DNA of 64,000 nt from Quercus robur (lineage: Eukaryota > Streptophyta > Magnoliopsida > Fagales > Fagaceae), in NCBI RefSeq assembly GCF_932294415.1, contig NC_065542.1, positions 53,440,406-53,504,405 of the forward strand, given 5' to 3'. Positions 1-41,607 of the stretch are shown in pieces; position 1 is the stretch's first letter, and every line of letters starts with the position of its first letter. A program made the position numbers and the translations under genes. The notes beneath the pieces are model-generated. The model was not told where the DNA came from and made no database searches. It was given only the letters and a program-made list of their open reading frames with translations.

Positions 1-729
1 AGACTATATCTATCGAGAATTACGAAATCAGAATTTCTAGATTTGATTTTTGGCCCATGCTAACATGTATGTGTAGGGTTTCTTTTCTCACAACCCTAGA
101 CATATATAAGACTTATTTTAAAGGCCGTCACATAAGAGAATACAAGAAAAACACATGCAAAAAGTGATCGAGTGCCTTATTCTCTCTGAAAAAAGCTACT
201 GTGTCTTTGCATCTTAGGGTTTTATAACCAAGTGCTTCTTGATCTTCATTATTGATGAAGTGAAGAACTTTACAGCCAACAACATCTTCCTCAAGTTGGT
301 GTGTTAGTCACGTACTGGAAGTCATGCATCATTGGTTAGTCAAGTATTGGAATCCATACAAAAGGGTAGCATTCATATATTGAAAAGTTTAGAGGTTCTG
401 AAGCGGTAGAAGGTTTCTACTGTAAGTTCATCTATGGGGATTGTAGAGTCTAGGGACAAAAGTTTTGTACTAGATCTAAATTTCTCTTTATTATAATGAA
501 TTGCTTTTTGGGAAGGTTTCCCCTCATGTTTTTTTTACTGTGAAACTAGTTTGTTTCATTGGCTTTCCTGGGTCATCATTTCTTGTCTTATTTACTATTC
601 TGCTGTGCATGATATTGACATAATATTGATGTTAGTTTGTTTTATCAAGGTTTATTTATAATAAATCTAATTAACAACTTAGGTTTAAAACTTGTTAATT
701 CTATCAACCGGGGTCTAAATTTCCCAACA
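1..729 (+). mobile_element. LTR of an LTR retrotransposon, partial (3' LTR or solo LTR)
   Basis: The stretch looks like a Copia-type long terminal repeat whose left part lies outside the window. It has a TATA box (CATATATAAG, 101-110) and an untranslated-leader-like region. It closes with TTTCCCAACA at 720-729, the CA-terminated end typical of plant Copia LTRs. No primer-binding site follows position 729, so this is a 3' LTR or a solo LTR rather than a 5' LTR. The sequence right after the boundary is Helitron body (homologous to 2608 onward), so the LTR appears to have inserted into a Helitron. The family assignment rests on the terminus and layout only. Confidence 0.6.
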
Positions 730-950
730 GTTCACATTTACTGTTACACTTTCCCCAACCTTTTCACTTCCTCCAACCATTCCCTTCCCTTTTTGCCTTT
801 TCATCTTCCCACTACTCTCTACTTTACTATTACACTTCATCATTTTTTTTCTTATATTTTGACTCTTCTTCTCCCCCATTTTATTTTTGTATAAATTCGA
901 TATCATTTCTCTCATTCAATCCATATTTTTCCTACGAAAAAACTGTGAAT

Positions 951-1015
<65 letters not shown>

Positions 1016-1070
1016 GGATTTTTGTTCTTTCTTACAACTCTAATTAAGGTGGATGGTTTTTTATTTTATT

Positions 1071-1102
<32 letters not shown>

Positions 1103-1498
1103 TTGATATTGTATTTTTTAAATTTTATGTCACTAAGTCTTCTCTCTCTCTTTTGTAGCTTTGGTTGAATTTTGGTTTGGGTTAATACTTAGTTTTCTTG
1201 GAAATAGGAATTTGCATTTATATAAAAGCAATATACATGGCTATGGGTTTGAATATAACTACTAATTTTTTGAGTAATAAATTATTATAAAGTCTATTTT
1301 TTATTTCTTTGGTTTCATTTTAATTTTGGTTAAAATAACATTGTAATTTTGTGATGAGTTTTTATTATATTGATAATTTCCTTATTCCTTAAGAGATGAG
1401 AAATTTGAATAATAAATTTGAAACTTATAAAGTTTAGTTGCATATTAGGCAAATATAACACTACAATAGAAATTAGAAGAAGATGGTTCACCTTAAAA
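730..1498 (+). mobile_element. Helitron fragment (same family as 2434-3505)
   Basis: This segment aligns with the interior of the complete Helitron at 2608-3330, including the pyrimidine-rich block, the TTCGATATCATTT segment, the CTCTCT tract and the AGTAATAAATTATTATAAAGTC segment. Homology starts exactly at the LTR end (730) and stops near ATTAATCA at about 1498. The 5' terminus lies left of the LTR and no 3' terminal hairpin or CTRR end was seen. It contains a long (CT)n tract at 952-1013 and an (AT)n tract near 1072-1094. Confidence 0.7.
952..1013. repeat. (CT)n microsatellite
   Basis: About 31 uninterrupted CT units inside a Helitron fragment. The homologous position in the neighbouring copy (about 2820) has only four units, so the tract expanded in this copy. 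Confidence 0.95.
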
Positions 1499-1563
1499 AA
1501 AATATATTAATCAGTGACCTTTATGACTGTTTAGGCTTGCTAAATTCCACAATAAGTGACCAT

Positions 1564-2159
1564 TATGATACAAATTTGAATGAGCTTTTACCTTATCTTT
1601 CCTACGAAATCCCTTCCTCTAGTTTTGCAATAGGCACAAAGGGTTAAGGCGCAGACACAGTTTATGGGCTTGCCATTTGTTGTGGTGATATCTTAGAGAA
1701 AGATTGCAGGAGTGTATTGTTAATGCAACCAACAAAATTCGGTCACATTGTCCTAATAATAAAGGTGCAATAATATGGTATTATTACTGCACATTGAAGT
1801 ATCATAATTTGGATTTCTTTGGCCAAATTGACCGTGACATATTGTTCTTCGCAAATACCCCAGAAAACATGAATACTAACCAATTGATTAGACAAAAGAA
1901 AGGAGAGTGGTTGGCCCAACTCGCAGGGCAAGCTTCTGTGAATGCATAAATGTTTTTAACTAGAGACTTCGATGTTGGAGACAATTACAAACTCCACAGG
2001 TCAGTTCAATGCCCTAGAGACCTTTCAAGCTTAGACTGTATGAAGTGCCTCAATGATTCAATTAGGTTTATTCTAAAATGTTGTGACTTGAGTAAAGGAG
2101 TGCAGATCTTTAGTTCAACTTGTGACCTAAGATTTGAGACTGTCTACCACAAAGTATAA
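1564..2159 (+). pseudogene. Broken DUF26 (Gnk2) ectodomain of a cysteine-rich receptor-like kinase
   Basis: Two DUF26 domains typical of plant cysteine-rich receptor-like kinases (CRKs) or secreted CRK-related proteins are visible. In the first, NLNELLPYLSYE leads to VYGLAICCGDI and an EKDC..C motif (C-x8-C-x2-C). In the second, VQCPRDLSSLDCMKCL repeats the same cysteine pattern, followed by CDLRFETVY. The copy is dead. A TAA at 1645-1647 replaces the glutamine of the usual GQG turn. One base is missing near 1709, shifting the frame inside the CRSC motif, and another TAA occurs at 1947-1949. No transmembrane or kinase part follows. It lies directly after the Helitron fragment ending at 1498, so it may be a captured gene piece; that link is inference. 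Confidence 0.85.
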
Positions 2160-2433
2160 ATGTGGGAGTTGAAGTATCTTGACATCAATTCTACTATCAA
2201 AATGTAACGTGTAATTAGAATATAATTTAAGTTTGTGGGTGATGAACTTTTCTACTTGGGTGATGAACTTTTGTCCTTTACAAGTTTTATCCAAACTGGT
2301 ACACAACTGAATAAGATTTGTTGTAGTTCTTTAATTTTATTTTTCACTAAGCATAGCTTGTGCCATTTATGGGGAAAAAAATCAACATAATATAATACTC
2401 TTTAGGTTGCGTCAATTAGCTCAAATAGTAAAA

Positions 2434-3505
2434 TCTCCTATATATATATAAAAATTGAAGTGTAGCATTTATTATTGCTACGCTTCTGTTGAGCCATATT
2501 AGCGGTCACATCAACTTATTTTATACCTCTTTTTTTTTTAAAACTTTTTTTATTCTCCCTATTCTTAAAAAAAAAAAAAAAAAAAAAAAAAACCTCCTAT
2601 TCTCTCTATTAGTTTACATTTACTGTTACACTTCCTCCAACATTTCCTCTCCTTTTTTGCTTCTTTATCTCTCCACTACTCTTTACTTTACTGTTACATT
2701 TCCTTCATCATTTTTTCTTTCTTAAATTTTTACTCTTTTTATCCCCATTTTATTTTTATATAAATTCGATATCATTTTTCTCATTTAATCCATATTTCCC
2801 CCACAAAAAAACGGTGAGTACTCTCTCTCTATATATTTTTGTTCTTTCTTATAACTTTGATTAAGGTTGATGGTTTTTTTTTTATTTAATATGTGTTATG
2901 GTATTGTGTTTTTTAAATTTCCCATCTCAAAGTCCTCTCTTTCTTTTGTAGGTTTGGTTGAATTTGTCCTCTCTTTCTTTTGTAGGTTTGGTTGAATTTT
3001 GGTTTGGGTTGATACTTAATTTTTTTGGAAATAGGAATGTGAGTTTATATAAAAACACAATCTAAATGGCTATAAATTTGAATATGCCTACCATTTTTTT
3101 GAGTAATAAATTATTATAAAGTCTATCTTTTATTCCTTTGATTTCATTTTAATTTTGGTTAACATAAATTGTAATTTTGTGATGAGTTTTTATTATATTT
3201 ATAATCTCCTTATTCTTTAAGAGATGAGAAATCTGAATAATAAATTTAGAACTTATATAGTTTAGTTATATATTAGGCAAATATAACACACTACAACAGA
3301 AGTTAGAAGAATATGATTCACCTTAAAAAAATATTAATCAAACATACAAAAAATAATATTATGATATATTTGTAGAGATAAAAAATACTTGTAGAAATAT
3401 TTTTTTTTAAATAGATAATACTTGAAGTAATTGTTACTTTTTATAAATTACACTCCATTACATAATAGTTATTTATTCTCACGTATCACGTGGGTCTGCG
3501 ACTAG
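2434..3505 (+). mobile_element. Helitron A, complete non-autonomous
   Basis: The 5' end is TCTCCTATATATATAT after a host A (2433). A subterminal inverted repeat follows: GAAGTGTAGCA (2457-2467) pairs with TGCTACGCTTC (2476-2486) across an 8-base loop. The 3' end is a short hairpin (CACGT at 3480-3484, ACGTG at 3488-3492) followed by CTAG at 3502-3505. These match the Helitron rules 5'-TC, 3'-CTRR, hairpin near the 3' end, insertion between A and T. There is no coding capacity. A poly(A) run fills 2567-2592. The next base begins another Helitron. Family relatives in this window are 730-1498 and the minus-strand elements at 24984-31577 and 33164-34631. Confidence 0.85.
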
Positions 3506-3759
3506 TCAATATATATAAAAGCAGAGACCTCATGCGGGAATGCATGAGATCTTGCCATGTGGTACTCTAAACTTCCATTTAGTTTTTTTTACCTTTTTTC
3601 CCATTAAAATTTTTCACTGTAACCTAATAATTTATAGTAACTTATTTTTATTGTCACATATATGGGGTGAGGTTGACAATGACCAAACAATTGTAATCTT
3701 CTAAAAAAATAACTACGTTCTCAAAGTAGATGAAAAGCCCAACCCCAGAAATATTGGCC

Positions 3760-4110
3760 CAAATATGAATTCCCCACCAACATGTAGCTAAAAGGCTACA
3801 AACTTTGACCCACCCCAAAAAATAACTACGTTCTCAAAGTAGATGCAAAGCCCAACCCCATAAACATTGACCCAAATATGAATTCCCCACCAACATTTTG
3901 CTGAAAGGCTACAACCTTTGACCCACCCGAACTTTGAACCCCCACCAACGTGTATCCCAAAGGATAACCCACGTTGAACACCCCACCAATGTGTACCTCA
4001 AAGGCTAACCCACGCCAAGTCTGAACACCTAACCAATGTGTAGCTCAAAGGCTACCATTTGAATTCCCCACCAACGTGTAGCTCAAAGGCTAACCCACGC
4101 CAAGGCTGAC
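3760..4110 (+). repeat. Degenerate tandem repeat near the Helitron 5' end
   Basis: A unit of roughly 35-65 bases built around CCCCACCAACGTGTAGCTCA and AAGGCTAACCCACGCCAAG occurs about seven times with variable spacing. A longer sub-block beginning ATAACTACGTTCTCAAAGTA appears twice (3708 and 3822). It lies between the Helitron 5' terminus and the first exon of the Rep-helicase gene, where promoter and leader sequence would be expected. No function can be read from it. Confidence 0.8.
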
Positions 4111-4850
4111 ATACCCCACAGTTCAGTAGGTGAAAGCCTAAATTTTTACACACAAACCCTCTTCTTCCTTCCCACCTATAGATGAAACCCAGCCAAGAAT
4201 TTCGGTCACTTCCAACCTCTGTTTTTCTATACAAAAACTCTTCAACTTCTAAGAAAACAACGGTTTCCATTCCAACTCAGTGATTATCTATACAAACACT
4301 TTTCAACTTCTAAAAAAAACAACGGTTTTCACTCCGACTCGATGATTATTTGAAGACATAAATGCAGGAGCTTAAAACATTTCAACGTTTAGTATTTTGG
4401 GCTTCAATGCAGCCCTTTCCAACCAATTATACAATGCAGTTAACACCAGGTAAATGCCACCTAATTTGTGAAATTGAAGAGTTAGTTTCATTTAATTTTT
4501 GCTTTGCATGTTGTAAAATCTGTTCTTTTATATATCTCTGTCTCCTTATGCCTCAAAACTTATGCCACTATAATTTCTCACAATTCATTTAAGAAAGGTA
4601 TGTTTACTTTCTTAATTTTATGTTCCTCTTAAATAGTTCGTTTATTAATTTATTTTTGAATCCCAAAATACTATGTTCGTTGTTATGCCACTATAATCTT
4701 ACATCTCATTTCACATTCGTTGTTAATTTCATGTTTCTCTTCAATAGTTTGTTTATTGATTTGTTATTTATTTAGTTTAGCCATCTTTAAAACTATTTAT
4801 AATTCAATAGTTGTTAACCCACAGAAACAATATTGATTTCTTTATTGAAC

Positions 4851-4851
<1 letters not shown>

Positions 4852-4886
<35 letters not shown>
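4852..4886. repeat. Poly(A) tract of 35 bases
   Basis: An uninterrupted A run just upstream of the first Rep-helicase exon. No LINE or SINE body was recognised next to it. Confidence 0.95.
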
Positions 4887-4888
<2 letters not shown>

Positions 4889-4972
4889 AAGCATTTACAA
4901 TTAATTTCAAATTCCTTTTCAAAAACCACAAGGTTCCTTAACAGTTTTGAGTAGAGGAATTTATTGGGGGAA

Positions 4973-7900
4973 ATGGAGGTTGCAAGACTTGTGTGCCAAA
5001 GAAGGCGTATGATCATGTACAAGAAAAGGATGGCCAAGATGTATTCCACAAACATAGTGTCATCAAAGAAATTTGGAGGTGGAAGCCATAGGAGTAAAAA
5101 GCATAAAGACATAGCAATGATCTATGATACAGGTAGTTGTAAGCGAGCAAGACTTAACAGGCGAATGGTACTCAACCTTAACCATACTCAGGAAAGTAGT
5201 TCAAATGCTCAATGTTTGCGGCGATCAACCCCTTCACTTACAAATGTTTTTTCTCACTCGGTTGTTGGGCTTAATGGTGATGTTGCTACTACAACTACTG
5301 TGCAAGAATTTGGGATACATCTGCCTACAAATGCTAGTGCCTTGGATAAGCATCTGCCTACAACTGAGATTATAGGTACTAATTCCATAATTTGGAATAA
5401 TTGTACTGATATAGTAATTAGCTTGGTTGGAGTATTTCTTTGGTTGTCACTTGCCTAAAAGTCTATTGAATATTCGCTTAGGCTTTTCATTGCATGAGTA
5501 ATTGTCTTATGGGTAGTGTAAATGGCCTAAATTATTTTGTGATTTAGCAAGGATCTATTAAAATGAAAGCTACCATGTTATAGGTTTCACCCTAAAGCCC
5601 TGTTGCCTTTTATAAAACCAACTCACGTTGTGATCTATTATTCATGCCATGGATTGATTTCCCTTGATAATGTTCATTGCTATTGCTTGCTATTTTTATT
5701 TAAATGATAAAGGACTAAAACACATTTTATATATGTATATATTTTATTTTTTTGATTTGAATCACGTTTTAGATTAAATAGTGATGGAGTTATCCCAACC
5801 ATAGTAAAATGTAATTTAAACAGCTTTTACAGCCATCAAATATTTTGGTCTATTATTCATGCATTGGATTGTCCGTAATACTATTAATAGTAAGTGATGG
5901 GGAATTTGAAGTTTTGGATATTGAGAAAATTCAAAATCAAACTTTGCTTTACTCTGTCTCATCCATATTTTTACTTACTTTGAATAGTTTCATGTCTTAA
6001 AATTTAAAAACAATGATAATTAAATAGGAAGATTGATTAATAGTTGTACTATGATTGCTGAAATTTGCATTTGAATACACTACTTTACCTCACCTACAGC
6101 AGCCATATATAATAGAAGCTTCACACTTAACTTTGTACTGATATGGTAATTAGCTTGGTTGGAGTATTTCTTTGGTTGTCACTTGCCTAAAAGTCTATTG
6201 AATCTTCACTTAGCCTTTTTATTGCATGATTAATTGTCTTCTGGGTAGTGTAAATAGCCTAAATTATTGTGTGATTTAGCAGGGATCTATTAAAATGAAA
6301 GCTACCATGTTATAGGTTTCACCCTAAAGGCCTGCTGCCTTTTATAAAACCAGCTCACATTGTGATCTATTATTCATGCCATGGATTGATTTCCCTTGAT
6401 AATGTTCATTGTTACTGCTTGCTATTTTTATTTAAATGATAAAGGACTAAAACACATTTTATATATGTATATATTTTATTTTTTTTATTCGAAACACGTT
6501 TTAGATTAAATAGTGATGGAGTTATCCCAACTATAATAAAATGTAATTTAAACAACTTTTACGGCCATCAAATATTTTGTTCTATTATTCATGCCTTGGA
6601 TTGTCCATAATACTATTAATAGTAAGTGATGGAGAATTTGAAGTTTTGGATATTGAGAAAATTCAAAATAAAACTTTGCTTTACTTTGTCTCATCCATAT
6701 CTTTACTTACTTTGAATAGTTTCATGTCTTAAAGTTTATATTTATAATCAATGATATTTAAATAGGAATATTGACTGCTGAAATTCGCATTTGAATACAC
6801 TACTTAACCTCACCTACAACAGCCATACATAATAGAAGCATCACACTTAACTTGGTTTATTTATTTATTTTTAGGCAGTTATGGGGTGTAGTTATATATG
6901 ACTGTGTAGTATTAACTCTGGGAATTGGTTGTTCTTGCTCTGCATATTACTAACTATGAATATTAGGCCCATAAAGGTTATAGGTTTCACCGCAAAGGCT
7001 TGCTACCTTTTATAGAACCAGCTCATGTTGTGGTCTATTATTCATGCCATGATTTCCCTTGACAATGTTGATTGTTGTTGCTTGCTATTTTTATTTAAAT
7101 GATAAAGGACTGAAACACATTTTATATATGTATATTTTTTTTTGAGCCTCGAAACTCATTTTATATTAAATAGTGACGGAGTTATCCCAATCGTAGAAAA
7201 GTGTAATTTTTAAACAGCTTCTACAGCCGTCAATTTTTTTCGTCTATTGTTCATGCCTTGGATTGTCCTTAACATTGTTAACTATAAGTGATGAAGAATT
7301 TGGAATTTTGGATATTTAGAAAATTCAAAATCAAACCTTGCTTTACTTTGTATGAAAATTAGATCCATCAAGGTATTGTAACATGGAAATCCACCTTCAG
7401 AAGCTCTAAAGTATTACCTGTTCATTTGATTTGTGGAATTTGTCTGAGCCACCAATTATAGACTGAGTGTACTTAACTTCCATCTGCAGTTAGACAGAAG
7501 TTTTTATAGCTGTCAATCCTCATGTTTCCTTAATTCTCTTGAAGTGTTAGGATTAGTATTGTATATTAATAAGTTGAATATATCATTATTTATATTTTAG
7601 GTTTGGGAATGTGCTATAGAAATCCCATTGACATAGACCTGAGTAAAAGGTCAAACAGCACACAAAGTAAGTGCAAAAACTACTATTTTGGAATTTTATA
7701 TTCATCGTTATTTTTCATTTTTCTCATTTTCATGCATGCAAAATCACATTAAAGTACTGTTATTTGTAATTTTAAATATTAAAAATAACAATTAAATACT
7801 TTTAAATAGTTAAAATACTATTTCAAGATAGCATCAATGACAATATACCAACAATAGGTTCAAAATTGCGTCTCCATGTATATTAAATACTTTATTAATT

Positions 7901-10900
7901 GTGTATACATTTTCTAAAAGTTACTTTGATAAAAGTCCTTCGTATATTTTCAACCTACCTTATTTCTATTTCTATTAAAAATTTGCTTTAAAATCCATTT
8001 TTTACAACATTACTTGGGACTATTTTTCCCTTTGGTTGGCTTCAGCACCTATGTTTCAAATAAAACTATTGCTAAATTGGGTTTTCAATGAATTGAAAAT
8101 AATATTAATTTTTTACATATGCTTTTGTACTTTCCATATTTCCATTACATAATTTCATCTAATTATGCTTCATTTTTCCCTATCATCTAGGAAAATTTAC
8201 AGAACTGTAGAACTTTGGCCCACCAAACTGTGTGTGTGAATATTGTAATGCAATATTATGGTACGAAGAGAGGAATCGTAAATCCAAAAACACAAAGAAT
8301 CCTAAATTCTCAATATGTTGTCGAAAGGGTAGGGTGAAGCTACCTTCGTTGAAATCACCACCTCCTGAGCTTCAAGATCTCCTACAACATTCAGAACATT
8401 ACAAGGCTAATATAAGGAGGTTCAACTCCATGTTTGCAATGACTTCTGTGGGAGGAAATGTTGATGTCCATGCCAATGAAGGGTGAGGCCCTTACATCTT
8501 TCGATTGAATCGGCAAAACCACCACAGAATTGGGTCGTTACTTCCAGTTGTTGGAAAAGACCCATCTTTTGCACAACTGTATATACACGACACAAAAAAA
8601 GAGATTCATTACAGAATAAGTGCTTTGCCTGGACAGGAATCACAATATGATCCTGACATTGCTATAGTTCAAATATTATTGAAGATGCTTGATGAAAACA
8701 ACGTCTTGGTTAATACATTCCGTATGGCAAGGGATAGGTTCAAGGACTCTGATATGCATAATGTACGCTTGTGATTAATTGGATCGCGATCAAGTGATGG
8801 TAGGGAACAAAACATGCCTACTTGCTCTGAAGTTGCTGCTATAATTGTAGGTGATTTGAGTGATGAAAATATCCATCGTGATATTATTGTTGAGAAAAGA
8901 AGTGGATTGTTACAACGAATAAATAAACTACATCCAAAATTCATGGCCATGCAATATCCACTGTTATTTTCGTATGGTGAGGATGGATAATGAAATACTT
9001 AAAAAAGGTCTTGGTGGTGCTGTGCCTTTGATAGAAGAATATGTCACTATGCAAGAATATTATGCATATCAATTACAACAGCGTGAGAATGAAGGTGAAA
9101 CATTGATTCTTGGTCGTAGGTTGCGACAACAATTTTTAGTAGATGCTTACACATGTGTTGAGGAGTATCGACTAATTTGGGTCAGGAACCATCAACTTCA
9201 ACTGAGATCAGAGGTGTACTTTGGAATAAAGGATGCTGTATTTAGAGGAGACACTACTCCTTCATCTATTGGGAAAAGAGTTGTTCTTCCTTCAAGCTTT
9301 ACTAGAAGCCCTAGATATATGATTCAAAATTACCAAGATGCTATGTCAATTTGTAGATGGGCTAGGTACCCGAATTTGTTTATAACTTTCACGTGCAACC
9401 CTAAATGGCCAGAAATTGAAAGTTTCCTTTCCTTAATTCCAGCTCAACGACCTGAAGATAGACGGGATATCATTGCAAGAGTTTTTAAGATCAAATTGGA
9501 TCAACTACTACGTGATCTAAAACATGGCAAGCATTTTGGAAAAGTAATTGCAGGTATAAAATACAACCCATTACTGTTTGATTGTTGTTCTTAATGGTTT
9601 AATCTATTTAATTATTGTAACATTTTTTTTTTGTTTCAATACAGTTAACTACACAGTTGAATGGCAAAAAAGAGGCCTCCCCCATGCTCACATTCTTTTG
9701 TACCTATACCTAGATGACAAACACCCCACGCCTGTGGATATAGACAAGATAATTTATGCTAAAATACCAGATAAGATTACTAATCCAGGGGATTATGAAG
9801 TCATTTCACAGTTCATGATTCATGGACCTTGTGGTTTTGCCAACCCAAAATCTCCATGAATGGTTGACAATAAATGTAGTAAGCATTTTCCAAAAAAGTA
9901 TAATGACATTGTGATAGATGAAGATGGTTACGCAATTTATAGGAGAAGAGATGATGGGAAGACAGTTGAGAAGAATGGTGTTATGCTCGATAACAGATTT
10001 GTGGTGCCATACAACATTGACGTGTTAGTTAAATACTAGGCTCACATTAATGTTGAGTGGTGCAACCATTCCAATTCCATCAAATACTTATTCAAGTATG
10101 TTAACAAGGGTTCTGATCGAGCAACATTTGTTTTGTATGAAAACTTACACACAGGTGCCACAAGTGAAGCACAACATATAACAAACATTGATGAGATCAA
10201 AACATATCTAGATTGTAGATATATATCAGCTTCTGAAGCATGCTGGAGACTTTTTGAGTTTGATAACCAATATAGAGAGCCTGATGTACAGAGATTAAGC
10301 TTCCATATTGAGAATGAGCAGAATGTTACATTCAAAGATTCAGACTACTTGGATAATGTTTTGGAAAGACCAGATATAACAAAAACAATGTTCACTGAAT
10401 GGATGAAGGCAAACGAAATGTATGATACAACAAGAAATTTGACATATTGTGATTTCCCTACGAAATGGGTTTGGCATAGAAAACAAAAAGAATGGCGCCC
10501 AAGGAAACCTGGCCAATATATAGGGAGGATATTTCATGCTCATCCTGCAAGTGGTGACTGCTTCTATCTTCGAATTCTCCTTAATGTGGTCAAAGGTGCA
10601 AGGTCTTTTGAGGAAATTAGGACTATTGATCATGTTGTGTATCCAACATATAAAGCAGCATGCTATGCTCATGGCCTTTTAGATGATGACAAGGAATGGG
10701 ATGATGCTATCAAAGAAGCCTCTAATTGGGCTTCAAGAAGGCAGCTACGAGAATTGTTCGCAACGTTATTGTTATTTTGTGAAGTGATAGACCCACATGC
10801 ATTATGGATGGCTAATTGGGAGTTGTTTTCTGATGATATACTGTATAGGCAAAAGCATCTCCTAATGTATGACAACTTACATTTGATAGAAGAACAAATA

Positions 10901-12511
10901 CAGAACTATGCTCTTTTTGAAATTGAACAAATATTAGTAAAAAATGGAAGATCTCTAAAAGAATTTGATGGCATCAAATATCCAAATGTGTTGACAATTA
11001 GAGAAAACAACAACCGATTGTTACTAGAAGAGTTGGATTTTGATAGGCTTGAATTGGCTGCAGAACATAAAAAACTTTTAAATGAGTTAAATGTTGAGCA
11101 AAGAAAAATATATGATGCTGTAATTTAAGATGTGGCATGCAATAGCGGTGGTTTATACTTTGTCTATGGTCATGGAGGAACTGGTAAAACATATCTTTGG
11201 AAAACATTAATTGCTTGCCTCCATTCACAAGGGAAAATTGTGCTTGCTATAGCTTCTTCTGGCATAGCAGCTTTGCTACTCCCTGGTGGTAGGACTGCTC
11301 ACTCCAAATTTCAAATCCCTATCATTGTGACAGAGGAATCAACTTGTGGTATAAAGCAAGGAACACATGCTGCTGAGTTAATGACAAAGGTGAGTCTTAT
11401 TATATGGGATGAAGCACCTATGGCACATTGTAATTGATTTGAGACTGTAGACCGTTCATTGAGAGATCTACTTCGATTTACCGACATAAATAGTGTCGAT
11501 AAAACTTCTGTATTAGGTGGTGATTTTCGACAAATACTGCCAGTTATTGCTAAATGCCATAGAGAAGATATTGTTGATGCATCAGTGAATAGATCTTATT
11601 TATGGAGCTTTTGCAAGGTATTTGTACTAACACAGAATATGCGTCTCCAACATCCTAATGCTGATTCCAACAACTTTGCAGAATGGATACTCAAATTAGG
11701 TAACGGAGAGCTTGGTGAAGTTGACAGCCAATCAAATATAGTCATACCCTCTGGCCTATTAATTGATGTTGGAGATGATCCAATACAAAGCATTGTGACT
11801 GCAACATATCCAAATCTTCACAGCAACTATGCAGATGGAAAATACTTGGAAGAGCGATCTATTCTAGCTCCAACAAATGATGTAGTCAATGAAATAAATG
11901 ACAATATCATAGACTTGCTGCTTCAAATGAGGAGACATATCTCAGTGCAGATTCAATTTGCAAGGCTTTGAGACACATTCAGAATGAAGATGTACTTTAC
12001 CCAGTTGAATTCTTAAACTCCTTGAAATTTCCTGGCATACCAAATCACAGACTGTCTTAAAGTTGGTCTTCCAGTAATGTTGCTCCAAAATATTAATCAA
12101 TCAGCTGGCCTATGCAATGGGACTTGATTAGTAGTTACTCAATTATCCAAATGGGTGATCGAAGCTAAAATTATAACCGGATCACATGTGGGAAACAAAG
12201 TCTTCATCCCAAGAATAGTACTTTCTCCATCAGACACAAAATGGCCGTTTGTTTTAAAGAGAAGACAATTCCTAATTTCTGTTTGCTTTGCCATGACTAT
12301 AAACAAGAGCCAAGGGCAATCACTAAAACATGTTGGACTTTTCCTGCCTAAACCAGTTTTCAGTCATGGGCAATTATACGTTGCTGTTTCTAGAGTTACT
12401 ACTAGGAATGGTCTTAAAGTCTTGATAATTGGTGATGATGGCAAAACCTCTTCAATGACTAAAAATATAGTCTATAAAGAGGTCTTTAGAAATATACATA
12501 TAAATATGTAA
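4973..12511 (+). pseudogene. Helitron Rep-helicase (RepHel), decayed
   Basis: The gene encoded the Helitron transposase: an HUH-type Rep nuclease fused to a PIF1-type helicase. Exon 1 (about 4973-5375) is a basic, Ser/Thr-rich N-terminus. A small exon may lie at 7602-7668. The main part opens at about 8195 with GPPNCVCEYCNAILWYEER, the Helitron N-terminal domain. The Rep domain shows GLPHAHILLYL (HxH at 9683-9691, after an intron at about 9556-9640) and the two-tyrosine motif KYLFKYVNKG (tyrosine codons 10085 and 10097). The helicase has Walker A GHGGTGKT (11168-11191), Walker B IIWDEAP and [10 protein letters not shown]. It ends with INKSQGQSL and YVAVSRVT. Breaks include stops at 8484, 8772, 9857, 10037, 11126, 11435 and 12125, a frameshift near 8980 and another near 11950-12060. 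Most stops replace a conserved Arg or Gln codon. The catalytic motifs remain readable, so decay is moderate. Confidence 0.92.
5398..7350 (+). repeat. Three tandem copies of a ~730 bp segment within a RepHel intron
   Basis: Copy 1 (from about 5401) and copy 2 (from about 6133) start at the shared string TTGTACTGATAT, an offset of 732 bases, and remain highly similar through the TTGAAGTTTTGGATATTGAG segment. A shorter and more diverged third copy runs from about 6970 (TTATAGGTTTCACC) to about 7350. All are non-coding and enlarge the intron after the first RepHel exon. Confidence 0.9.
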
Positions 12512-12789
12512 AAGTTCATTGAAGAAAGTTCATCATTCATTGCTAAGTTTCTAACTGCATTTAATTATTAATTTATACTTTTTGTAAAACAAAAATATCA
12601 TGTTCCAAGCTTCTTTAAAAAAAAATTAATAAATTTGATAATGCAAAACGTAGTCAATTTTGCATTCTACCAAAATAAATTATTTCATTGATGATTATTA
12701 TAATTTTACTTACTTTTGTATATATTTTTTATGACAACTTCTCTATTCAACTCTAGAAATAGCTGCAGAAGTACTAATACTAAGTCAAA

Positions 12790-15587
12790 ATGGCAATGTG
12801 TTGGACTCCTTTGAGCAAGATTTCAACGGATAGAGACAATTGGACAATCAAGGTCAGAGTACTTCGTATGTGGGATGCAATCAACACAAAGAACAATGAG
12901 TTCATAAGCCTTGATATGATATTTATTGATGAAGAGGTAAGTATAGAACTCAATTTATATTGTGTACATTCAATTTATTATGCAGATTCAATTCTCTTAA
13001 AAATAATTATTTTACCAACTTATCTTATAAGCTTCTACAATAATTAGTTATTAATCTATTTTTGCAAAACCTATATACTAAATCTTTAATAAATAGATGT
13101 ATATTAAGAAAATCCAACATCCATGGCTATTATATATATTCACAAGAAGAATTATGGAAGACACTGACATTTCTCATTGTTCTAGGGCTCAACAATACAT
13201 GCAATTGTTCGGAAAAATCAAGCACGAACTTTTAGACCACAATTGCTTGAAGGCCGTGTTTATACCGTCAAGAATTTCAGGGTGGAGAGTACTAAAGGCG
13301 AGTTTCGACCCATGCACAATGATATCAGAATTTGGTTCATGACCATTACTACAAACATGGAGTCCAATGAAGATATGAACTCAATCCAAAAATACTGCTT
13401 TGAGTTTGCTGACTATGACCAAATACAGAACCAATGTTACAACTACACATATTTAATAGGTAAATACAAATCTGCAACTATTTCACAACTCCTCTAATAT
13501 AGCTGTATCCTAATTTAATGATTCAAAATAACCTAACTACAAAATTGCATATAAATAGATGTTGTTGGAAAGTTGGTAGCAGTTGGAAATGTTGAAGAGC
13601 CTCAAGTTAATGGCGCACCAAGAAAATTGCGCAACCTACAATTGCTTTTGAAAGAGTAAGACACAATTTTTTATGTGATATTGATGTCATTATATGTTTA
13701 TATAGAAAAATCAATTATAAATAAAAAAAATTACTAATAACAAAAAAAATCATCAATGATTTAAACTATACCAGGGGAAAAGAAATTAGGCTTTCACTAT
13801 GGGGAACAAGTGTTTGGCAAATCGATGAAGACGTATATAAGAACAATCCAGGACCTTTTGTCTTAATTGCAACTTCGACTATTGTCAAATCATTTGGAGG
13901 TAAGTCTAACTAAATAATGTTTCCAACTATCAATTTTAATGTACTTAGTACTGCTATCAAGTTAATAACTATATTGGTTACTAATCTTAGGCCATAAATT
14001 TTACACTGAGAAATGTAATCACTAATTATAAATTTTTTATACTCAAACTTATTCATTTTCAAATCAATCTAATGATACTTTTAGAGAATCTCATTCTCAT
14101 TAAAACATGTCTTCCTTTTTCTCAATTTCAATTCAATACGATTTTGTTTATTATAATGTATTCTACAATTTTTCCAGGAAAATTCTCTTGATTTTGTTTA
14201 TTATAATGTATTCTACAATTTTTGCAGGCAAATTCTCTTTGTCATCAACCAGTGCAACAAAAGTACATCTAAATCTTGAGATTCCCGAGGTTGCTAAAAT
14301 AATTGACAGGTGCATATTTTTAAAATTATTAATAACAAAAAAAAAATGATAAATAGCATTTTTTATCTCACAAAATACCATTTACATTCTTTTTTCCTTT
14401 TTAAAAATTCAATGATAGGAATGGTAAAAAACATGATCCTATACAAGAAATACCAAAAATCCATGCAAAACAATTTTTAGACGAGGATTTATCTTCAAAC
14501 AATATGAAGACAATACTAGAGCTCAAATGAATTGAATGGGATCCTACGAAACAGGTTTGTTAATCATTTCAAAGTAGACTCATCATTTACATGACAATAT
14601 AATAATGCATCATTTACTTAAAAAAAACATATTAACTTCAAAGTTCATTGTAGGATGTTAATTGCTATTGTGTTGCAACAATAAGCAACATTGATACAAC
14701 AATGAGTTGGTATTATATTTCATGCGTGTTATGTGGAAAGAAGGTCAAACCACAATTAGGATCATTTTGGTGCGCAAAATGTCAAACAAAAACAAATCTG
14801 CCTATCCCAAGGTTAGAGGCACACACATTAACTACAAAGTTTGCAATTTTTTTTTTAATAAATATATTCATCTTACTATAATTGCTATACAATTGCAAAA
14901 TACTTCAGATATAGGATTCAAATTGAAGTTTTTGATTCAATTGACAAAAAAACTTTTGTCATATTTGATCGAGATGCTGAGAAAATCATAAATAAATCTG
15001 CAAGAGATCTTGCTGAAAAACAAACTGAGGTACAACTTATTTAAATTATTAAAATTATTGTAAAACTATTGATTATAATATAAATTAAATTTCCTAACAT
15101 GCAGATTGATATTGAAGAAGGAATCCCACGTGATCTTAAGAAAATTTTAGGAAGAAAAATACATTTTTCTACTTCGCTTGAATGAATTCAATCTAAAGGA
15201 TGGTTTTGAAAATTACACAGTTGCTAAGATTTTTGATGCACCTTCAAATGAGAAAAAGGTATGAAAGAAAAAAAAACACAAGCCAGTATGCTATATTATT
15301 TCTTTTGCTAAACTATACTGATGTAAATAACATGCTCAAATTTAATATGAATGCAGATACCTATGCAAAGTCTTAGCGATAACAAATCTGCCACCGTAAA
15401 CTTTGTAAGATCCAGCCAAGAATCTTCCAGTGCCATTTCATCAATGATCAACACAAATGATGCAACAAAAGGAGAAAATGATAAAAGCTCACAAATTGAA
15501 CAAATAAGGATAGACCAAACTTCAAACGTTGAAGATGAAGAAACAGATGATGATAACATACCCATCAACATGCTTTACAAGCGTTGA
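12790..15587 (+). pseudogene. RPA1-like single-stranded DNA-binding protein of the Helitron
   Basis: This is a multi-exon gene of the RPA 70 kDa (DUF223/OB-fold) type often carried by plant autonomous Helitrons; it probably binds single-stranded DNA during transposition. Exons with clean GT..AG borders are about 12790-12936 (start MAMCWTPLSKIS), 13186-13459 (TIHAIVRKNQ, LLEGRVYTVKNF), 13559-13655, 13775-13899 (LSLWGTSVWQID) and 14228-14309. Further exons run to 15587. A zinc ribbon near 14710-14810 shows CVLCGKKV then WCAKC. The C-terminus is acidic (EDEETDDDN). Two in-frame TGA codons lie near 14530 and 15184, so the gene is probably inactive. It is less damaged than the RepHel gene upstream and lies on the same strand about 280 bases after it. 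Confidence 0.85.
14141..14240 (+). repeat. 50-bp tandem duplication spanning a 3' splice site
   Basis: Two adjacent 50-base units (14141-14190 and 14191-14240) differ at only a few positions. Each carries the polypyrimidine tract, the AG acceptor (14176-14177 TTCCAG, 14226-14227 TTGCAG) and the first exon bases. The second acceptor matches the RPA-like reading frame; use of the first would shift the frame because 50 is not a multiple of three. Confidence 0.95.
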
Positions 15588-15938
15588 CATACTTCAAAAA
15601 ACAAAGCATTCAAGAAACAAAAAAACAATATTTCGCAATAAAGCTCTTTATTACATCACAAAATAAATATCAATAATATGGAATGAATAACCATGCTTTT
15701 ATCAACTTTTATTATACAATATTACTCTAAAGTTGATTCTTTTTTCTTTATTACTTCAACAAAATAATTATAATGAATATGTGTCTACAATTTATAATTG
15801 TTATTTCTTATTATAAACTCAGTACTAACACAGTTTTATAACAAATATGTTATAATATATGTACAATATTCTTCATAAAAAACTAACCATTACAACATTA
15901 TCCGTGCTTCGCACGGGCAACTTACTAATTTTATATAA

Positions 15939-18173
15939 TTACCCACAATGCTTAGGTGACATACAATTGCTTCTCACATGGCCCCTTTTTTTTTTAAACG
16001 CTACACTTTCTCTTCTTCATCAATTGTTTTACTCTTGGATGCTTTTGTCTCAAAGCTTTAGGCCTTCCCCATGAAGGAACATGTGGAGGGTCTCGCAAAG
16101 TAATTGGAAGATTTGATAATACTTGATTGTTTAATGTAGTATTATCAGGACTTCCTGAATCATCAACATCACAAACATCTTGCATGGCTAGAAGCTCCTC
16201 ATGAACCTTTTGTAAATTTTGTCCAAGATACTTGTATTTCTTCTCTAATTGTGACCCTGCCTCTGTAGCTTCCAAAAATTGAAGTATGAAACTATTTCTC
16301 ATCAAGGTAGAAGAAATTTGTGGCTCAACCTGTACGTCATCACCAGATATTTCATGTACAATGTCCATCTCTCTAAAATATAATGTGATGGAAAAAAGTG
16401 CATAAGAGATTTCTTCACAAAAACAACAAGAATATGCCTAAAAATAATTCCAACAAACTCAAACATATGGCATGCACAAATAGCTTTTGTCTCAACAATA
16501 TCCAGTGACACTTCATAAAATGGACTTTCTTTCCTATGAACTACCACCTTATATATCTTTTTCACTCATTCTTCACAATATTTGGATGCCTTGTAATTTT
16601 TTATTACAAAATAACTCTTCTTGAAATTTCATAAACATCTTTCTTGTATAAACTTTTGCTGCCTCTACTTCCATCTTGTAACATGTTTTCAAAATTGGCA
16701 CTAAATTTTTTCTCTTTATATCTTGTTCTTTCTCTTTAAGATAACGTGTATTCAAAACTTTCTCATATTGATACACAAAGTCACTTATCGTTGTACTTGA
16801 ACGAACATAATCTTTAAAAAATTTACTCATGCTTTCACTCCTTTGAGTTGTAGATATCCCAACACAAAATTTCCTTCGTAAGTAAGCGGGAACCCATTTT
16901 TCACACCGTATATAGAGATTTTCCAACCAATCGATATCCCCCAATCCATAGTTCTCCATAATCTCACTCCATTCTAACTCAAACTCTTCAATGGTGAGTG
17001 TATCATGGATGCAATGGTGAAATTCTCCTTGAAAATATGGATATTTATTATATATATGGGACAATTGATCTGGAACTTTTTGTAAAATATGCCACACACA
17101 CAATCTATGAGTTGCATTAGGCAATACATTTGCAATTGTCTTAGCCATAGCCTTGTCATCATCTGTGATAATTGTAGGAGGATTTCCAAGTATTGCATTA
17201 AGCCAAGTCTTCAACAACCATGTATAAGATTCAACTGTTCATTCATAAGCAAAGCACATCCAATCATCACAGATTGATGATGGTGGTTAACCCCTGTGAA
17301 AGGAACAAAAGACATCTTATAAGTGTTTATTTGGTATGTAGCATCAAAACTAATGACATTTCCAAAATATTGGTATGCAATTCTTGACCTAGCATCTGCC
17401 CAAAAGCAATTACCTATGCACCCATTTTCATCAATTTCAACTGCATAAACAAAACCTGGATTTTTATATTATTGCTCAATAAAATATTTGTACATTCCCT
17501 GGGCATTTCCATCTTGAAGCGACTTTCTTCTTTTATTACCCAAATAATTTTGAATATTGACCGGAATACATCCAACATTATAATCACCACCAGATTTTTT
17601 ACTTAACACAGACATTATCTTGCTTGGAGGTATACCTGTCTCATTGAGTGTATCTATAAGATTCCTTTGGGCATTTGTTATCACTCTATGCCCATGAAGC
17701 ATGGTTGTACTTTTAGGAGTAAGACGCTCATAATTATGATCCTCCACAAACTTACACATGATTCATGTATCTTCAATTTTCTTTAAACCTATCATTGCTT
17801 TGCATCCCACTCTTGTTTCTACACGCTTTGGACCTATTCTTTTTGTGTCTTCATCACGTTTACGACGAAACTCTTCATTTGAACAAACATATTCAATACC
17901 AACCAATATTCTATCTTTTTTAGTCTTTCGAGTATGATTTACTCATATGCCAAATCCCTTTCGCCTTGCATATGCATTATAACATGCTTTAGCATCCTTA
18001 AGCTTATCAAGTACCATATTGAGACATGGTTCCAAATGCCTATTGCATGCAAAAGGTTGATTTGAATCATTCAATGACAAGTCTACATCATTTTGATCTT
18101 CATTTATTTCTGAATCATATTCCAACATATCATAAAGTGAGATTGTTTCAAGTTTTTCATTGCTCGAACTCAT
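15939..18173 (-). pseudogene. FAR1-related / MULE-type transposase, decayed
   Basis: Read on the minus strand, this is a FAR1-RELATED SEQUENCE-like protein derived from Mutator transposases. In order: an acidic N-terminus from ATG 18173; FAR1 DNA-binding domain (AYARRKGFGI, then VCSNEEFRRKRDEDTKR); MULE transposase domain (FWADARSRIAYQYFGNVISF, IITDDDKAMAKTI, THRLCVWHILQK); SWIM zinc finger; and a C-terminus with LRDPPHVPSWGRPKALRQKH and a final CCHC knuckle ending at stop 15939-15941. Breaks are TGA at 17943, TGA at 17763, TAA at 17469, a one-base frameshift near 17240, and TAA at 15994. In the SWIM finger (CAC..GIIFRHI) a conserved Cys is Phe. It may be a dead MULE or a dead copy of a domesticated FRS gene; no terminal repeats were identified. 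Confidence 0.88.
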
Positions 18174-19095
18174 ATTTTCAATTCAAGTAATTTTAAATTT
18201 CAAAATAACCTTTAAAAAAAAAAGAGAAGAAAAATTCATAAGAAACGATTGGGAATAAATTCATGTATTGTGCTATTACAATATCAAACTTGCCCAATTT
18301 GGCAAACTTTTTTAATTACAAACTTGTTTTAGAATACAAGTAAAGAGTAAATCCAACCACTTAATACAAAACCAAACAACCAATTTGAATTTTTAGAAAT
18401 ACAAATTAATTCCACATAAGCACAAAAAAGGCAAGATACATTTGAACACCTTGCTCAACAGCTCCAACTACATCTTTAATTGCACTCTGGTACATATCGA
18501 GAGCAAATTGACATTACAAGTAGGAGAAAATTGAAATTACAACTAGTATTTAATAATATTGGAAGCCAAAAAATATGATAATATCTATCAAATAAATGAT
18601 ACCAACTGTGTCCTAGAGGCCTAGGTTCACAGTGGAGAATTCAACAACCACGGTAAAAAAAAAACTTGTCGAAAAGACACTTGTAACACAAAACAAGATT
18701 CTCATTCAATTAATTCATTTTAGTGTTAGATTCCTAATTGAACAAGCTCCCAAGAAAAGCAAATCAAAAAAATTTAAGTCAAGGTTTATTAAAAAAAAAA
18801 AAAACACAAACTGAAAATTAAATAAATATGACAGTATAATCACAACAGGGCAACCTAGAAATAGTTATTTTTGCTTGCACTTAATACCTGTTTTACATAA
18901 AGATGGAATGCAATGACTTTCAGAATATAACATAATTCAAAATTTTAAAATTAGACCAGCAAAGAAGGCAGTTTAGGTTGTCCACAAGGTTGCCACTCAT
19001 CTCTTAAAAGATTAGAAAAGAAAGTTCTTAAATAATATAAAAAGCCTAAATGTGCTCACTTCAGACTCAAAGGTGAGTGTTCCTTGCCTTAAAGC

Positions 19096-27690: not shown

Positions 27691-27699
27691 TCTATTTAC

Positions 27700-30640: not shown

Positions 30641-30654
30641 TGTTTGACCAATTC

Positions 30655-31015: not shown

Positions 31016-31577
31016 GGATGTAGGGATACCTCAACTGAACCACCCGCTTACATCAGTATTTATATAGATGTGAGGAGAGGAAGGAAGGAAGGAAGAAAGA
31101 GGGGCTGCCGTTAGAAGCCAAAACAGAAGTTGAAACCGTAGAACAGGAAGATGAAACCGTGAGTGAAACAGTAGAACAGAAGCTGAAACCATGAGAATCA
31201 AAAGGTGGGGAAGGGGAAGGGACTAAGCCTGAAACAATGAATCAAAACGTGGGGGACAGGAATTTCAATTGTGTAACAGAAGGAAAGGGAATAGTAACCA
31301 TGAAAAAACATCAGGTTTGACAAAGGGATGTAGTTGAAAAGATTTTGGGTGTGGGCTTGGGCTCTATCGTGGGATTAAATGTATAAAAATTGGACTTTAA
31401 AGTAGAGATAAGGCTGGAAATAAATTTAGTTTTGTTAGTATTTTAAAATTAGTAAAATCTATTTTAAAATTAAATTGAAAATTCAAAAAAAAAGATGGGA
31501 ATGACATGGCTGCTGATGTGACTCAATGTGAGCGTAGCAACATTAAATGCTACGCTTTTTGTTTGAACGTGCAATGA

Positions 31578-33125
31578 CTTACAAAAAATATTAAAGAATA
31601 GTTCATGACTATAAACTTATAACTATTGAAAAGAATCAAAAGATTAAGAGCTTAAAAATTATAAAAATATATGTGTGTGTGACTACACAACAGAGAAATA
31701 TAAGAGAAAAATTTGTTACACTCAAAATAATAATTCATGGTTATAATTATTGAAATTTTCCAGATAGTTTTGGATATTACAAAAATATAACTCAAAAAGT
31801 CAGATGTTAAAACTTCCAAAAGGTCAAAAAATATTAAGGAATCATAAGATTTACATCCTATAAATTATTGAAACAAAACTATATATATATATATATATAT
31901 ATGATTTTATAATAGAGAAATATAAAAGAAAAATTGATTACCTTCAAAAGAATAATACATGGTATAGTTGTTGAAATCTGCTAAACATGTTCAAATATTG
32001 CAAAAACTAACACAAAATATATGACTATTCAAAAGAGAAAAATAAGAAGAAGAAAAAAGTACATGAACCTATAAAGTAATTAGTTTTAAATTTTAATGGG
32101 TCTAAACTTTAAACAATGAAAAAAAATCACATGCTAGGTTGTGTTCCTAGCAACCTTGAAAGTAAAAGTAAAGGGAAAAAAAAAACCATGAAATACCATC
32201 AGCCAATAAGTTTTAATGGGTTTAAACTACAAACAATGAACAAAAATAATCATAAACAATCATAAGTGCAGGGTTTGGTTACCAAGATCAGATGGTTGTA
32301 AAACACAACATTTCAACATTGATTTAGGGTTATGCAGAAGGCAACATAAATGACAGAAAATTGTTTTTACGTTGTCTGCTATGCCAACCATCTAAATATA
32401 TTAAATAAAATTAAATAAAATAATTCCTAGAATTATATGAGATAATTAAGAAGAACATCAAGCCCTTGCGTGGATGTTATTTGTGGACGGCTGTCCATCA
32501 CTGCAATTCATGACTTTGTTGTTAATAAGACAATCGAGTTCAAAACTAAAAGCAATTAGGTGGCCTTTGTACTACAGGATTTGTTCTCGTTGAAGAATCA
32601 ACTTGCTTCCTGCTATGGCTTCAATTTGATATGTGTGTTTTCTTTGTGAAAATTTGAGTGAGTATGAAGGGTTTCGACCTTGGTAGAAGTTTATATTTGT
32701 GAAAATTTTTGTTATAGAATTTTAGTTGAAATAGAATTTTCAAGCTTTTGAAACATATATCTAATAGAATTTTATTTAAACTAAACTATTGTAATACTTG
32801 ATAAGATATAAAACCAAAAATAAAAAGAATCTAAAATAAAAAGAAAAAGAAAAAGAAAATAGTGATGACGTGGAAAATTGTGGGAGCTCCAAAGGCTATT
32901 TTCAAGCTTTTGAAACATATATCTAATAGAATTTTATTTAAACTAAACTATTGTAATACTTGATAAGATATAAAACCAAAAATAAAAAGAATCCAAAAGA
33001 AAAAGAAAAAGAAAAAGAAAATAGTGATGACATGGAAAATTGAACCAAAAATAAAAAGAATCTAAAATAAAAAGAAAAAGAAAATAGTGATAACGTGGAA
33101 AATTGTGGGAGCTCCAAAGGTTTCG

Positions 33126-33163
<38 letters not shown>
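31578..33163 (-). mobile_element. Helitron C, minus strand, 5' part
   Basis: The 5' end is TC at 33163-33162, followed on the minus strand by a long TATATA run and AAAACCGAAACCTTTGGAGC. It directly abuts the CTAA end of Helitron D. No 3' hairpin plus CTRR end was found before Helitron B begins, so C appears truncated or its 3' end is lost. The interior is AT-rich with no coding signal. Confidence 0.6.
32741..33120. repeat. Tandem duplication of the Helitron C 5' region
   Basis: CAAGCTTTTGAAACATATAT begins a 162-base unit at 32741 that repeats at 32903. A third partial unit follows from about 33043. GGGAGCTCCAAAGG, part of the subterminal Helitron sequence, appears at about 32882 and again at 33108. 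Confidence 0.9.
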
Positions 33164-34058
33164 TTAGCCACAAACCTGCGCGTTGCGCATGATAATTATT
33201 TTTATGGTAGTTTTATTAAAATTTTTTTATACAATTTAAACTAATTTAATAAAGAGTAATGTATTTTGTAATTATATTTTTATTCATTATAAGAATAATC
33301 ATAAATGTAATATAGAAACAATCATAAATCATAAATTTAATAATTTTTGTTGTACTAAAATGAAAAAAAATACAATTTTTCTCAAAAATTCAAAAGGCAA
33401 TTTAACGAAAATATTTATTTTTTTAATAAAAGTTATTTATAACATTTTGTGAATCATTAAAAAGAAAATAAAATTTAGAAATTATTCTTTTAGTTTTAAA
33501 CAAACTTTCTCAAACTTATTTTTTCTACCTACAATCCAAAACACTAAAAAAAGTAACTAAAAAAATTAATAAAACTTAACTATGATTAATTGAACCAATT
33601 AGGAAAAAAAATTGTTATTTATAATCTACTAAGGTTATTTTTCTTTGCGGAAATTGTAATTTCGTCCACCCAAAACATATTATCAAATAATCAATTATTA
33701 GCAAAATCTAAGATTTAAATTTTTATATATGCATTGTTATAAAATAATAATAATAATAATTAAAGTAAAATTGCGAAAGATAAAATTTGTCTCTCATCCA
33801 ATAACTTTTGTTTAGCCAACCTTTGCTTTTCTCTAAATAAATTGCATTATAGAGTACTTTGTCTACCACAAAGGATTAAAAAATAAACAAAAATGATTAA
33901 AGTTTCATAGTTTAACATCTAAATTGAGCACTATAAAAATCATGCTATCAAATTACAGTAGCTACCAAATTAAATTATCCAAATCATGCTATGTATTAGA
34001 ATAATATTATATTTTTATATTTAATCCTTTATAATGCAACATGATAACATTTAACAAT

Positions 34059-34092
<34 letters not shown>

Positions 34093-34190
34093 TGAATCGC
34101 ATTAACCTAAAGTAGATTAAAGAATATAAAAAATTATCAACCTAAAGCGAAGATGCAAGAAAAATAAAAAATAAAAATCCACTCAAAAAT

Positions 34191-34241
<51 letters not shown>

Positions 34242-34631
34242 ACCTTTTTTTTGTAAGGAAAAACTATGCATGGAATGAATGAGATAGTGACAAATTTATA
34301 GTAAGAAAGTGTGAATAAGAAGAGACAAAAATAGAGGAAGACGAAGGGAAAGATGAAGAATGATATTAATGTAGAGAGTAGTGGGGAGATGAGAAGGTGA
34401 GAGAATGAGAGAAGGAGAAAGGTTAGAGAAGTAGTGGGAAGATGAAAAGGTAAGGGAGGAAGAAAGGTTAGAGAAGTGTAAATATGAAATAAAAAAAAAT
34501 TTATAAATAATTATAAGAAAATGAAAAAAAAAGAAAAAGAAAAAAAAAAGATGATGACGTGGACGTTGACGTGGCTCAACGTGAGCGTAGCAGTATTAAA
34601 CGCTACGTTTCAGCTTTTAGTAATATATTGA
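33164..34631 (-). mobile_element. Helitron D, minus strand, complete non-autonomous
   Basis: On the minus strand the 5' end is TCAATATATTACTAAAAGC (TC at 34631-34630). The family palindrome CGTAGCG/TGCTACG follows at 34607-34586. The 3' end is TGCGCAACGCGCA (hairpin), GGTTTGTGG and CTAA at 33167-33164. The interior matches Helitron A: pyrimidine-rich leader, then a CT/CACACA tract. Microsatellites lie at about 34063-34090 and 34192-34237. There is no coding capacity. Its 3' end is joined to the 5' TC of Helitron C. Confidence 0.82.
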
Positions 34632-41594: not shown

Positions 41595-41607
41595 GGCTCT
41601 GATACCA
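41595..41607 (-). other. Primer-binding site for initiator tRNA-Met
   Basis: TGGTATCAGAGCC on the minus strand follows the 5' LTR directly and is the standard complement of the plant initiator tRNA-Met 3' end. Confidence 0.95.

Follow-up and report, generated by a model that had tools for sequence, protein, structure and literature searches.

Two unrelated Helitrons joined head to tail in the Quercus robur genome, and a fused Helitron pair in the same window

Introduction

Helitrons that lie head to tail have so far been read either as concatemers or as separate insertions. In maize, Du et al. 2008 (PMC2267711) described Helitrons at r1 that are joined head to tail with a G/T joint, set out both insertion orders, and already proposed insertion at an AT made of the host A and a 5' T. 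Abutting Helitrons, tandem arrays, 3' bypass and multiple termini have also been published (PMC4778049, PMC5876387, PMC3288121, PMC5148889, PMC4067079), and a review reports that Helitrons insert near other Helitrons (PMC12477314). Here we analyse a 64,000-nucleotide stretch of Quercus robur DNA (contig NC_065542.1, here C38; C38:53440406-53504405), referred to as the window, in which a Helitron that we call A+ is followed directly by another, E, and in which a second pair, D and C, is also directly joined.

Helraiser enters AT dinucleotides and prefers AT-rich DNA, most of all on the 3' side, and 46 of its 1751 insertions were at dinucleotides other than AT (Grabundzija et al. 2016, PMC4778049). 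The same paper reports abutting bat Helitrons and 3'-end bypass, and transfer of a neo cassette by Helraiser rose from ∼11.7% to at least 36% upon removal of the hairpin. Multi-termini Helitrons derived from nested elements are known in maize (PMC3288121), composite FoHelis in Fusarium (PMC5148889), and RPA-encoding plant Helitrons include Mothra and a sister family (PMC4683698).

Like the maize r1 pair, A+ and E are two unrelated elements, the CTAG of one being directly followed by the TC of the other. The maize pair was documented by presence or absence in polymerase chain reactions on inbred lines, whereas the oak pair is documented by an empty site, family borders and further joints within one genome, and a contrast between intact and lost CTAG is added. 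E resembles the Mothra type in combining a Rep-helicase with an RPA-like (DUF223) piece, and differs by four stops. A+, like the multi-termini Helitrons of maize and the FoHelis, has several ends in one mobile unit. D/C differs from those elements in being an end-to-end fusion, of which one genome contains numerous fused copies as well as the two parents in free form. Its formation would share with the bat bypass a read-through beyond a 3' end to a downstream terminator; in Helraiser the hairpin was removed, whereas in D/C the hairpin letters are kept and the last base of CTAG is changed.

Head-to-tail Helitrons are known, and what is added here is the CTAG/CTAA contrast: one window holds a CTAG joint whose upstream member moves alone and a CTAA joint whose pair has spread. 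This natural comparison bears on what terminates Helitron transfer, the hairpin or CTAG, and on the origin of new composite, gene-carrying Helitrons. In the accessible open-licence literature we met with neither a fused pair whose two parents also occur free and whose inner CTAG has become CTAA, nor a polarity count at Helitron 5' ends.

Results and Discussion

The joint between A+ and E

At the joint the window reads ...CTCACGTATCACGTGGGTCTGCGACTAG up to position 3505 and TCAATATATATAAAAGCAGAGACC... from position 3506, that is, the CTAG of the upstream Helitron and then the TC of E, with zero host bases between them (Table 1). A sequence-only reading of this DNA had claimed such a joint and a 12.4-kb E, and the letters, the relatives and the empty sites agree with it. 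We searched one assembly of 786 Mb; the surveys of relatives cover the best-scored candidates rather than a random sample, and include a few duplicated segments (L003/L009, L054/L055). With the 200 bases round the joint as a query, the best 40 of 824 candidates were scored and the 39 places outside the window were read. In A-type copies the element ends with CTAG (or a variant of it) before a T at the point equivalent to 3505; E-family copies start at the equivalent of 3506, preceded by other DNA (e.g. L005, L008, L015, L016, L018). The many copies, proposed earlier as a check on these borders, leave the 3' end of A and the 5' end of E in place.

The outer edges were read with a query in which 100 bases left of A+ were joined to 100 bases right of E. 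Of its 14 rows, two are the window's own flanks; the remaining 12 come from other places and all run across the A/T site without an insertion (81–89%). In base-level alignments of two of these, L157 and L158, over ∼870 bp, the insertion site is free of gaps. The empty site reads ...AATAA followed by TTTTATAT, as compared with ...AAAAA, then A+ and E, then TTTTATAT in the window. The insertion therefore consists of A+, with a solo long terminal repeat (LTR) inside it, and E at a single A/T, where no host base was lost, gained or left between the elements. The outer flanks, A on one side and T on the other, and the 12 empty sites also establish A/T insertion without target-site duplication; for E by itself it is presumed, the site being common to A+. 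With a single assembly available, a chimera, or else a chance likeness of termini, could be imagined, but it is extremely unlikely given that family borders and empty-site matches agree both at the outer edges and at the joint.

Terminus signals were scanned with a strict rule for 3' ends, a hairpin followed by CTRR-T. Two such ends occur on the plus strand (3505 and 15928) and one on the minus strand (24984), and 60 first-order Markov simulations gave a mean of 0.067 per strand. Position 3506 is one of only 9 out of 7480 TC sites on both strands that have an AT-rich start and a subterminal palindrome of at least 7. The subterminal 5' hairpins at 2434 and 3506 and the short 3' hairpins at 3505 and 15928 were compared with shuffled sequences (Table 1). 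Hairpins at 24984 (z −1.5) and 33164 (z −1.4) show no excess over shuffles, and these two ends are therefore placed by their relatives.

A zero-base head-to-tail joint is also what a rolling-circle concatemer would be expected to leave, an origin proposed for tandem Helitrons in bats (Pritham and Feschotte, cited in PMC2267711). Such an origin is barely conceivable at A+/E, which are members of different families. Matches between E and the part of A+ compared (2434-3505) are weak and no longer than 41 bp (best E-value 0.001), so that the joint is not a tandem repeat; the 3' ends differ as well. Repeated copies of one element are not what is found here, and the sequence difference contradicts them. 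What the letters give is a pair of the type described by Du et al., a zero-base CTAG/TC joint between different elements.

The two elements

The upstream element is longer than first thought. The sequence-only reading had started it at 2434 and had accordingly proposed an empty site made of 2424-2433 joined to 15929-15940. A search with the 200 bases before 2434 gave 7 genome candidates, all scored, and six other genomic matches. Three of these six loci (X004, made of L115 and L004; X012, made of L114 and L012; X116, the reverse complement of L116) are collinear with the window from 729 to 3505, one of them from 821 on, at 83–86% by BLAST with gaps counted and at 92.6, 91.1 and 87.7% over ungapped columns. 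An outer A-type 5' end is clear behind A in X004 (...TCTAA followed by TCTATATATATC) and X116 (...CAAAA followed by TCTATATATATC) and eroded in X012. All three copies end with CTAG and T in other DNA, without E. An element confined to 2434-3505 is rejected, the stretch before 2434 travelling along in the other copies. As this stretch is the interior of A+, 2424-2433 was dropped as the left flank, and the true flank is off-window. Among the 39 other A-type 5' ends read, two (L075 and L078, by eye) have the window's flank before 2434; these two lie in the A+ copies X116 and X012.

The full A+ extends from C38:53439977 to 53443910 and is 2954 bp long excluding the solo LTR; its 5' end, read in L137, is 429 bp left of the window. 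It has the TC and CTRR ends, 3' hairpin, A/T flanks and copies with differing flanks of a canonical Helitron, with two 5' ends (the outer one and that at 2434) and one 3' end. The solo LTR (980 bp) is flanked by the 5 bases GTCCA and GTTCA, which differ by one mismatch. The DUF26 gene fragment inside A+ is broken in the window copy. A further relative of A+ (82%) is present at C39:12551126.

E has a 5' TC, a 3' CTRR and a hairpin near its 3' end. Two internally deleted copies align to its last bases and end ACTTACTAG followed by T in differing surroundings; the terminus is CTAA in the window copy and CTAG in both relatives read. The profile matches identify a Rep protein joined to a PIF1 helicase, with the motifs LPHAHIL at 9677 and YLFKYV at 10085, which we take to be the HUH motif and the two-tyrosine Rep signature. 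The split profile match makes an intron at ∼9553-9641 probable. Downstream, the DUF223 piece is presumably RPA-like. The Rep-helicase has four in-frame stops (9857, 10037, 11126 and 11435), so that E lacks the intact coding capacity needed for autonomy, though not for membership. Within E, before the Rep-helicase domains, there are three repeat copies at 5401-7351 (∼380–730 bp, 85–92% alike).

Table 1. Coordinates of features in the window (z, hairpin compared with shuffled sequences)
Feature	Position	Strand	Basis or remark
Solo LTR (TG...CA), right-hand part	1..729	.	Inserted in A+; left end off-window at C38:53440155
Helitron A+ (3' part in window)	730..3505	+	Collinear with three other copies
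Cysteine-rich gene fragment (DUF26 / Stress-antifung, PF01657)	1602..2192	+	E 6.6e-13, stops read as X
Inner A-type 5' end (TC, AT tract, subterminal hairpin)	2434..2533	+	Hairpin z −4.0
A+ 3' hairpin CTCACGTATCACGTGGG	3478..3494	+	z −2.5
A+ 3' terminus CTAG	3502..3505	+	Letters and relatives
Helitron E, 12,423 bp	3506..15928	+	Both ends from relatives; empty sites
E 5' subterminal palindrome CTCATGC..GCATGAG	3529..3548	+	z −3.3
E Rep-helicase	8923..12511	+	Helitron_like_N, PIF1 helicase; profile matches PF14214, PF05970
E RPA-like piece (DUF223, PF02721)	13186..13497	+	Profile match
E 3' hairpin and terminus (TCCGTGCTTCGCACGGG...CTAA)	15901..15928	+	z −3.9
Right host flank: MULE repeat	15929..17238	−	MULE transposase domain PF10551 at 16573-17238
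Helitron C, downstream member of D/C	31559..33163	−	Cut short at 31559 in the window
Helitron D, upstream member	33164..34631	−	Inner 3' end GGCTAA

Arrival of A+ and E as a single unit, with the 5' end of A+ and the 3' end of E as its termini, would leave the same empty site, and spread as one unit has a precedent at the D/C joint of this very window. It is nevertheless a very improbable account of A+/E, in which neither the inner CTAG nor the hairpin is damaged. Of the 39 other matches not one spans the entire joint query, the same joint was not found at several loci among these best 40 of 824 candidates, and the three other A+ copies read lack E. Four matches have a like joint with at least 25 bases on each side (L006, L007, L024 and L030; 77–84%), and L007 and L024 have 170 bp in common across their joints (79.5%), which may go back to an old composite formed by relatives. 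In L006 and L007 the A-type part is distant from A (67% and ∼72% identity, respectively), and we take the four joints as belonging to other family members. The idea that the pair moves together and carries the Rep-helicase gene with it thus found no backing at this joint, and on account of its four stops the pair as it stands is without a working gene and would need outside help to move. The exact 24-base joint pattern had no match in viral contigs, as expected for plant DNA.

Order of insertion

E very probably arrived first, at an A/T of the MULE-like repeat, and A+ later, between the host A and the T of E. Insertion of E after CTAG would need a G/T target, whereas A+ could enter between the host A and the T of E in the canonical way, which favours E as the first comer. 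This logic, put forward in the sequence-only reading, gains support from the empty sites and from the split 5' termini of the downstream elements at sister joints. The proposed succession starts with an RPA-carrying Rep-helicase Helitron, E, entering an A/T site in the repeat; A+ would then have landed between the host A and the 5' T of E; and the solo LTR would have split A+ later, the Rep-helicase of E now being broken.

Sister joints were surveyed with the first 100 bases of E as a query, and all of the best 40 of 534 candidates were read. A Helitron 3' end adjoins the E-family 5' end head to tail in 8 of the 40: the window, L017, L020, L028, L033, L059, L069 and L073. Under the strict hairpin-and-CTRR rule the number is 6, L020 and L069 being added by similarity to known D- or E-type 3' ends. 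In seven of the eight, the joint is inside the AT tract, the TC of the E-family member is gone, and the letters are CTAG (once GTAG) followed by TATATA...AAAAGC. Loss of TC is expected if a newcomer entered TCAA/TATATA between its two halves, and at L017 and L033 the TCAA is found on the far side of the upstream element. One further place (L002, ACTAA followed by TCAATA), without a hairpin, was not counted as a joint, and the ambiguous places L037, L003/L009 (a duplicated segment) and L072 were likewise omitted from the count. At L033 the upstream element is a copy of D (94% identity to that of the window), and those at L017 and L020 are other members of the D family (∼65–82%). As the upstream elements vary between loci, the joints look like separate events. 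At the L020 locus (reverse complement of L042, position 1867) there is a further zero-base joint, ...ATACTAG followed by TCTATATATTACTAAAAGC, and this locus is a train of at least three Helitrons. In a number of E-family and D-type 5' ends, TCAA is repeated several times before the AT tract, e.g. in L050, L052, L060 and L033.

The reverse order, with A+ resident and E entering second and non-canonically at G/T after the CTAG of A+, yields an identical sequence and is one of the two options given for the maize pair (Du et al. 2008, PMC2267711). It is improbable here: GT is absent from the most prominent alternative targets named for Helraiser, TT, AC and AA (PMC4778049), and the loss of the downstream TC at seven of the eight sister joints is left unexplained by that order.

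Several observations weigh against E having come first, or lessen the weight of the joints. The letters at 3505/3506 fit either order, E at G/T giving the same product. Identity to relatives gives no sign of A+ being the younger: by BLAST with gaps the nearest read relative of E is at 92% over 1.1 kb (L002), as compared with ∼85% for A+, which attains 92.6% over ungapped columns only. The strict scan yields 6 rather than 8 abutted E-family ends. TCAA repeats are common at such 5' ends, which makes the TCAA found past D at L017 and L033 no more than suggestive. At L101, a piece of a reversed E-type 3' end is found ∼35 bases before the terminus, outside the AT tract. Moreover, 13 A-type matches to the joint query end at 99-102 and continue into DNA without an evident Helitron 5' end (by eye), and Helitron 5' ends are therefore one target among many.

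Orientation at 5' ends

The E-first order would be one instance of a more general pattern, in which Helitron 5' ends, with TC and an AT tract on the 3' side, act as polar targets and head-to-tail trains lengthen at their 5' side. Polarity is suggested by the 8 forward joints at the 40 E-family ends, as compared with no reversed ones detected there. A second survey, of the best 40 of 499 A-type 5' ends, gave two abutted ends (L100 by the strict rule, L095 by similarity). Reversed A-, D- or E-type 5' ends in AT tracts were seen in neither set of 40, bare TA-repeat matches aside. By analogy with Helraiser, a bias towards AT-rich 3' flanks may be enough to account for the polarity. Taken together, the empty site, the family borders and the split termini point to sequential insertion with polarity.

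The fused pair D/C

On the minus strand of the window, the last base of Helitron D is directly followed by TCTATATATA...AAAACCGAAACC, the start of Helitron C. For the D 3' end, the best 40 of 533 candidates were scored and 38 fetched besides the window. The D/C joint is present in 35 of the 40 D ends (the window and 34 of the 38 fetched); 34 of these have CTAA as the inner end of D, and L128 has CTAC. All four D ends that are free of C (L033, L150, L154 and L155) read CTAG; L154 and L155 have identical flanks, with A rather than T after CTAG. One fused copy, L156, has an additional D inside the joint, and in some fused copies the TC of C is gone at the joint. An exact search of the genome with the last 25 bases of D gave 30 matches, 25 with CTAA and 5 with CTAG. 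Every one of the 25 CTAA ends is followed by C, as read in 23 copies and in the window and as judged from position in one. The two CTAG ends that were read are not followed by C; the other three CTAG ends are at C3:2851646, C4:85952745 and C37:67492916.

Viewed from C (best 41 of 97 rows, including the window), 36 rows are directly behind D; the others are one second match within a joined copy, one free C (L161) and three without flanks read. The free C starts after ...TTTAA with TCTATATA and ends GCACGAGTTGGCGACTAG followed by T. L160 and L162, both fused copies, share the terminal CTAG of L161, and their downstream flanks differ from each other. The same joint is thus found at several loci with differing outer flanks: D, C and D/C each exist as a mobile unit, and the fused form has spread. 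The sequence-only reading had suggested that a pair could move through the 5' end of its upstream member and the 3' end of its downstream member; the suggestion fails at A+/E, for which it was made, and fits D/C. That reading is, as a whole, partly supported.

Fused D/C and the free D at L033 have the same hairpin letters and differ in the last base of CTAG. With the inner CTAG intact, the upstream element would leave alone, and with CTAG lost the pair could move as one. This comparison of copies suggests that the last base of CTAG contributed causally to the fusion, with the caveat that E in the window also ends in CTAA. In addition, the fused copies probably descend from one founder, in which case the 25-to-0 split between CTAA and CTAG is one event, not 25. 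A tentative and rather doubtful extension would be that Helitron transposases prefer resident Helitron 5' ends as oriented sites, giving trains that grow upstream, and that a change in the last base of an inner CTAG, with the hairpin the same, lets the composite spread as a unit.

Other features of the window

A fragment of a further A-type element truncates the window's D/C copy at 31559. Position 24984 was considered as the 3' end of D/C and rejected, there being, window aside, no match at the listed D/C copies (best 40 of 82). On the minus strand, 24984-31558 is an element with an A-type 3' end, GCGACTAG followed by TTTT, and a 5'-truncated A-type start at 31558 cuts the fused copy; the two ends are assumed to belong to one element. 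To the right of E, 15929-18500 is a repeat bearing a MULE transposase, with 12 other genomic matches to the flanks without the Helitrons. Identical direct repeats of 172 bp are found at 36660-36831 and 41607-41778, 4.9 kb apart, and look like the LTRs of a recent retrotransposon.
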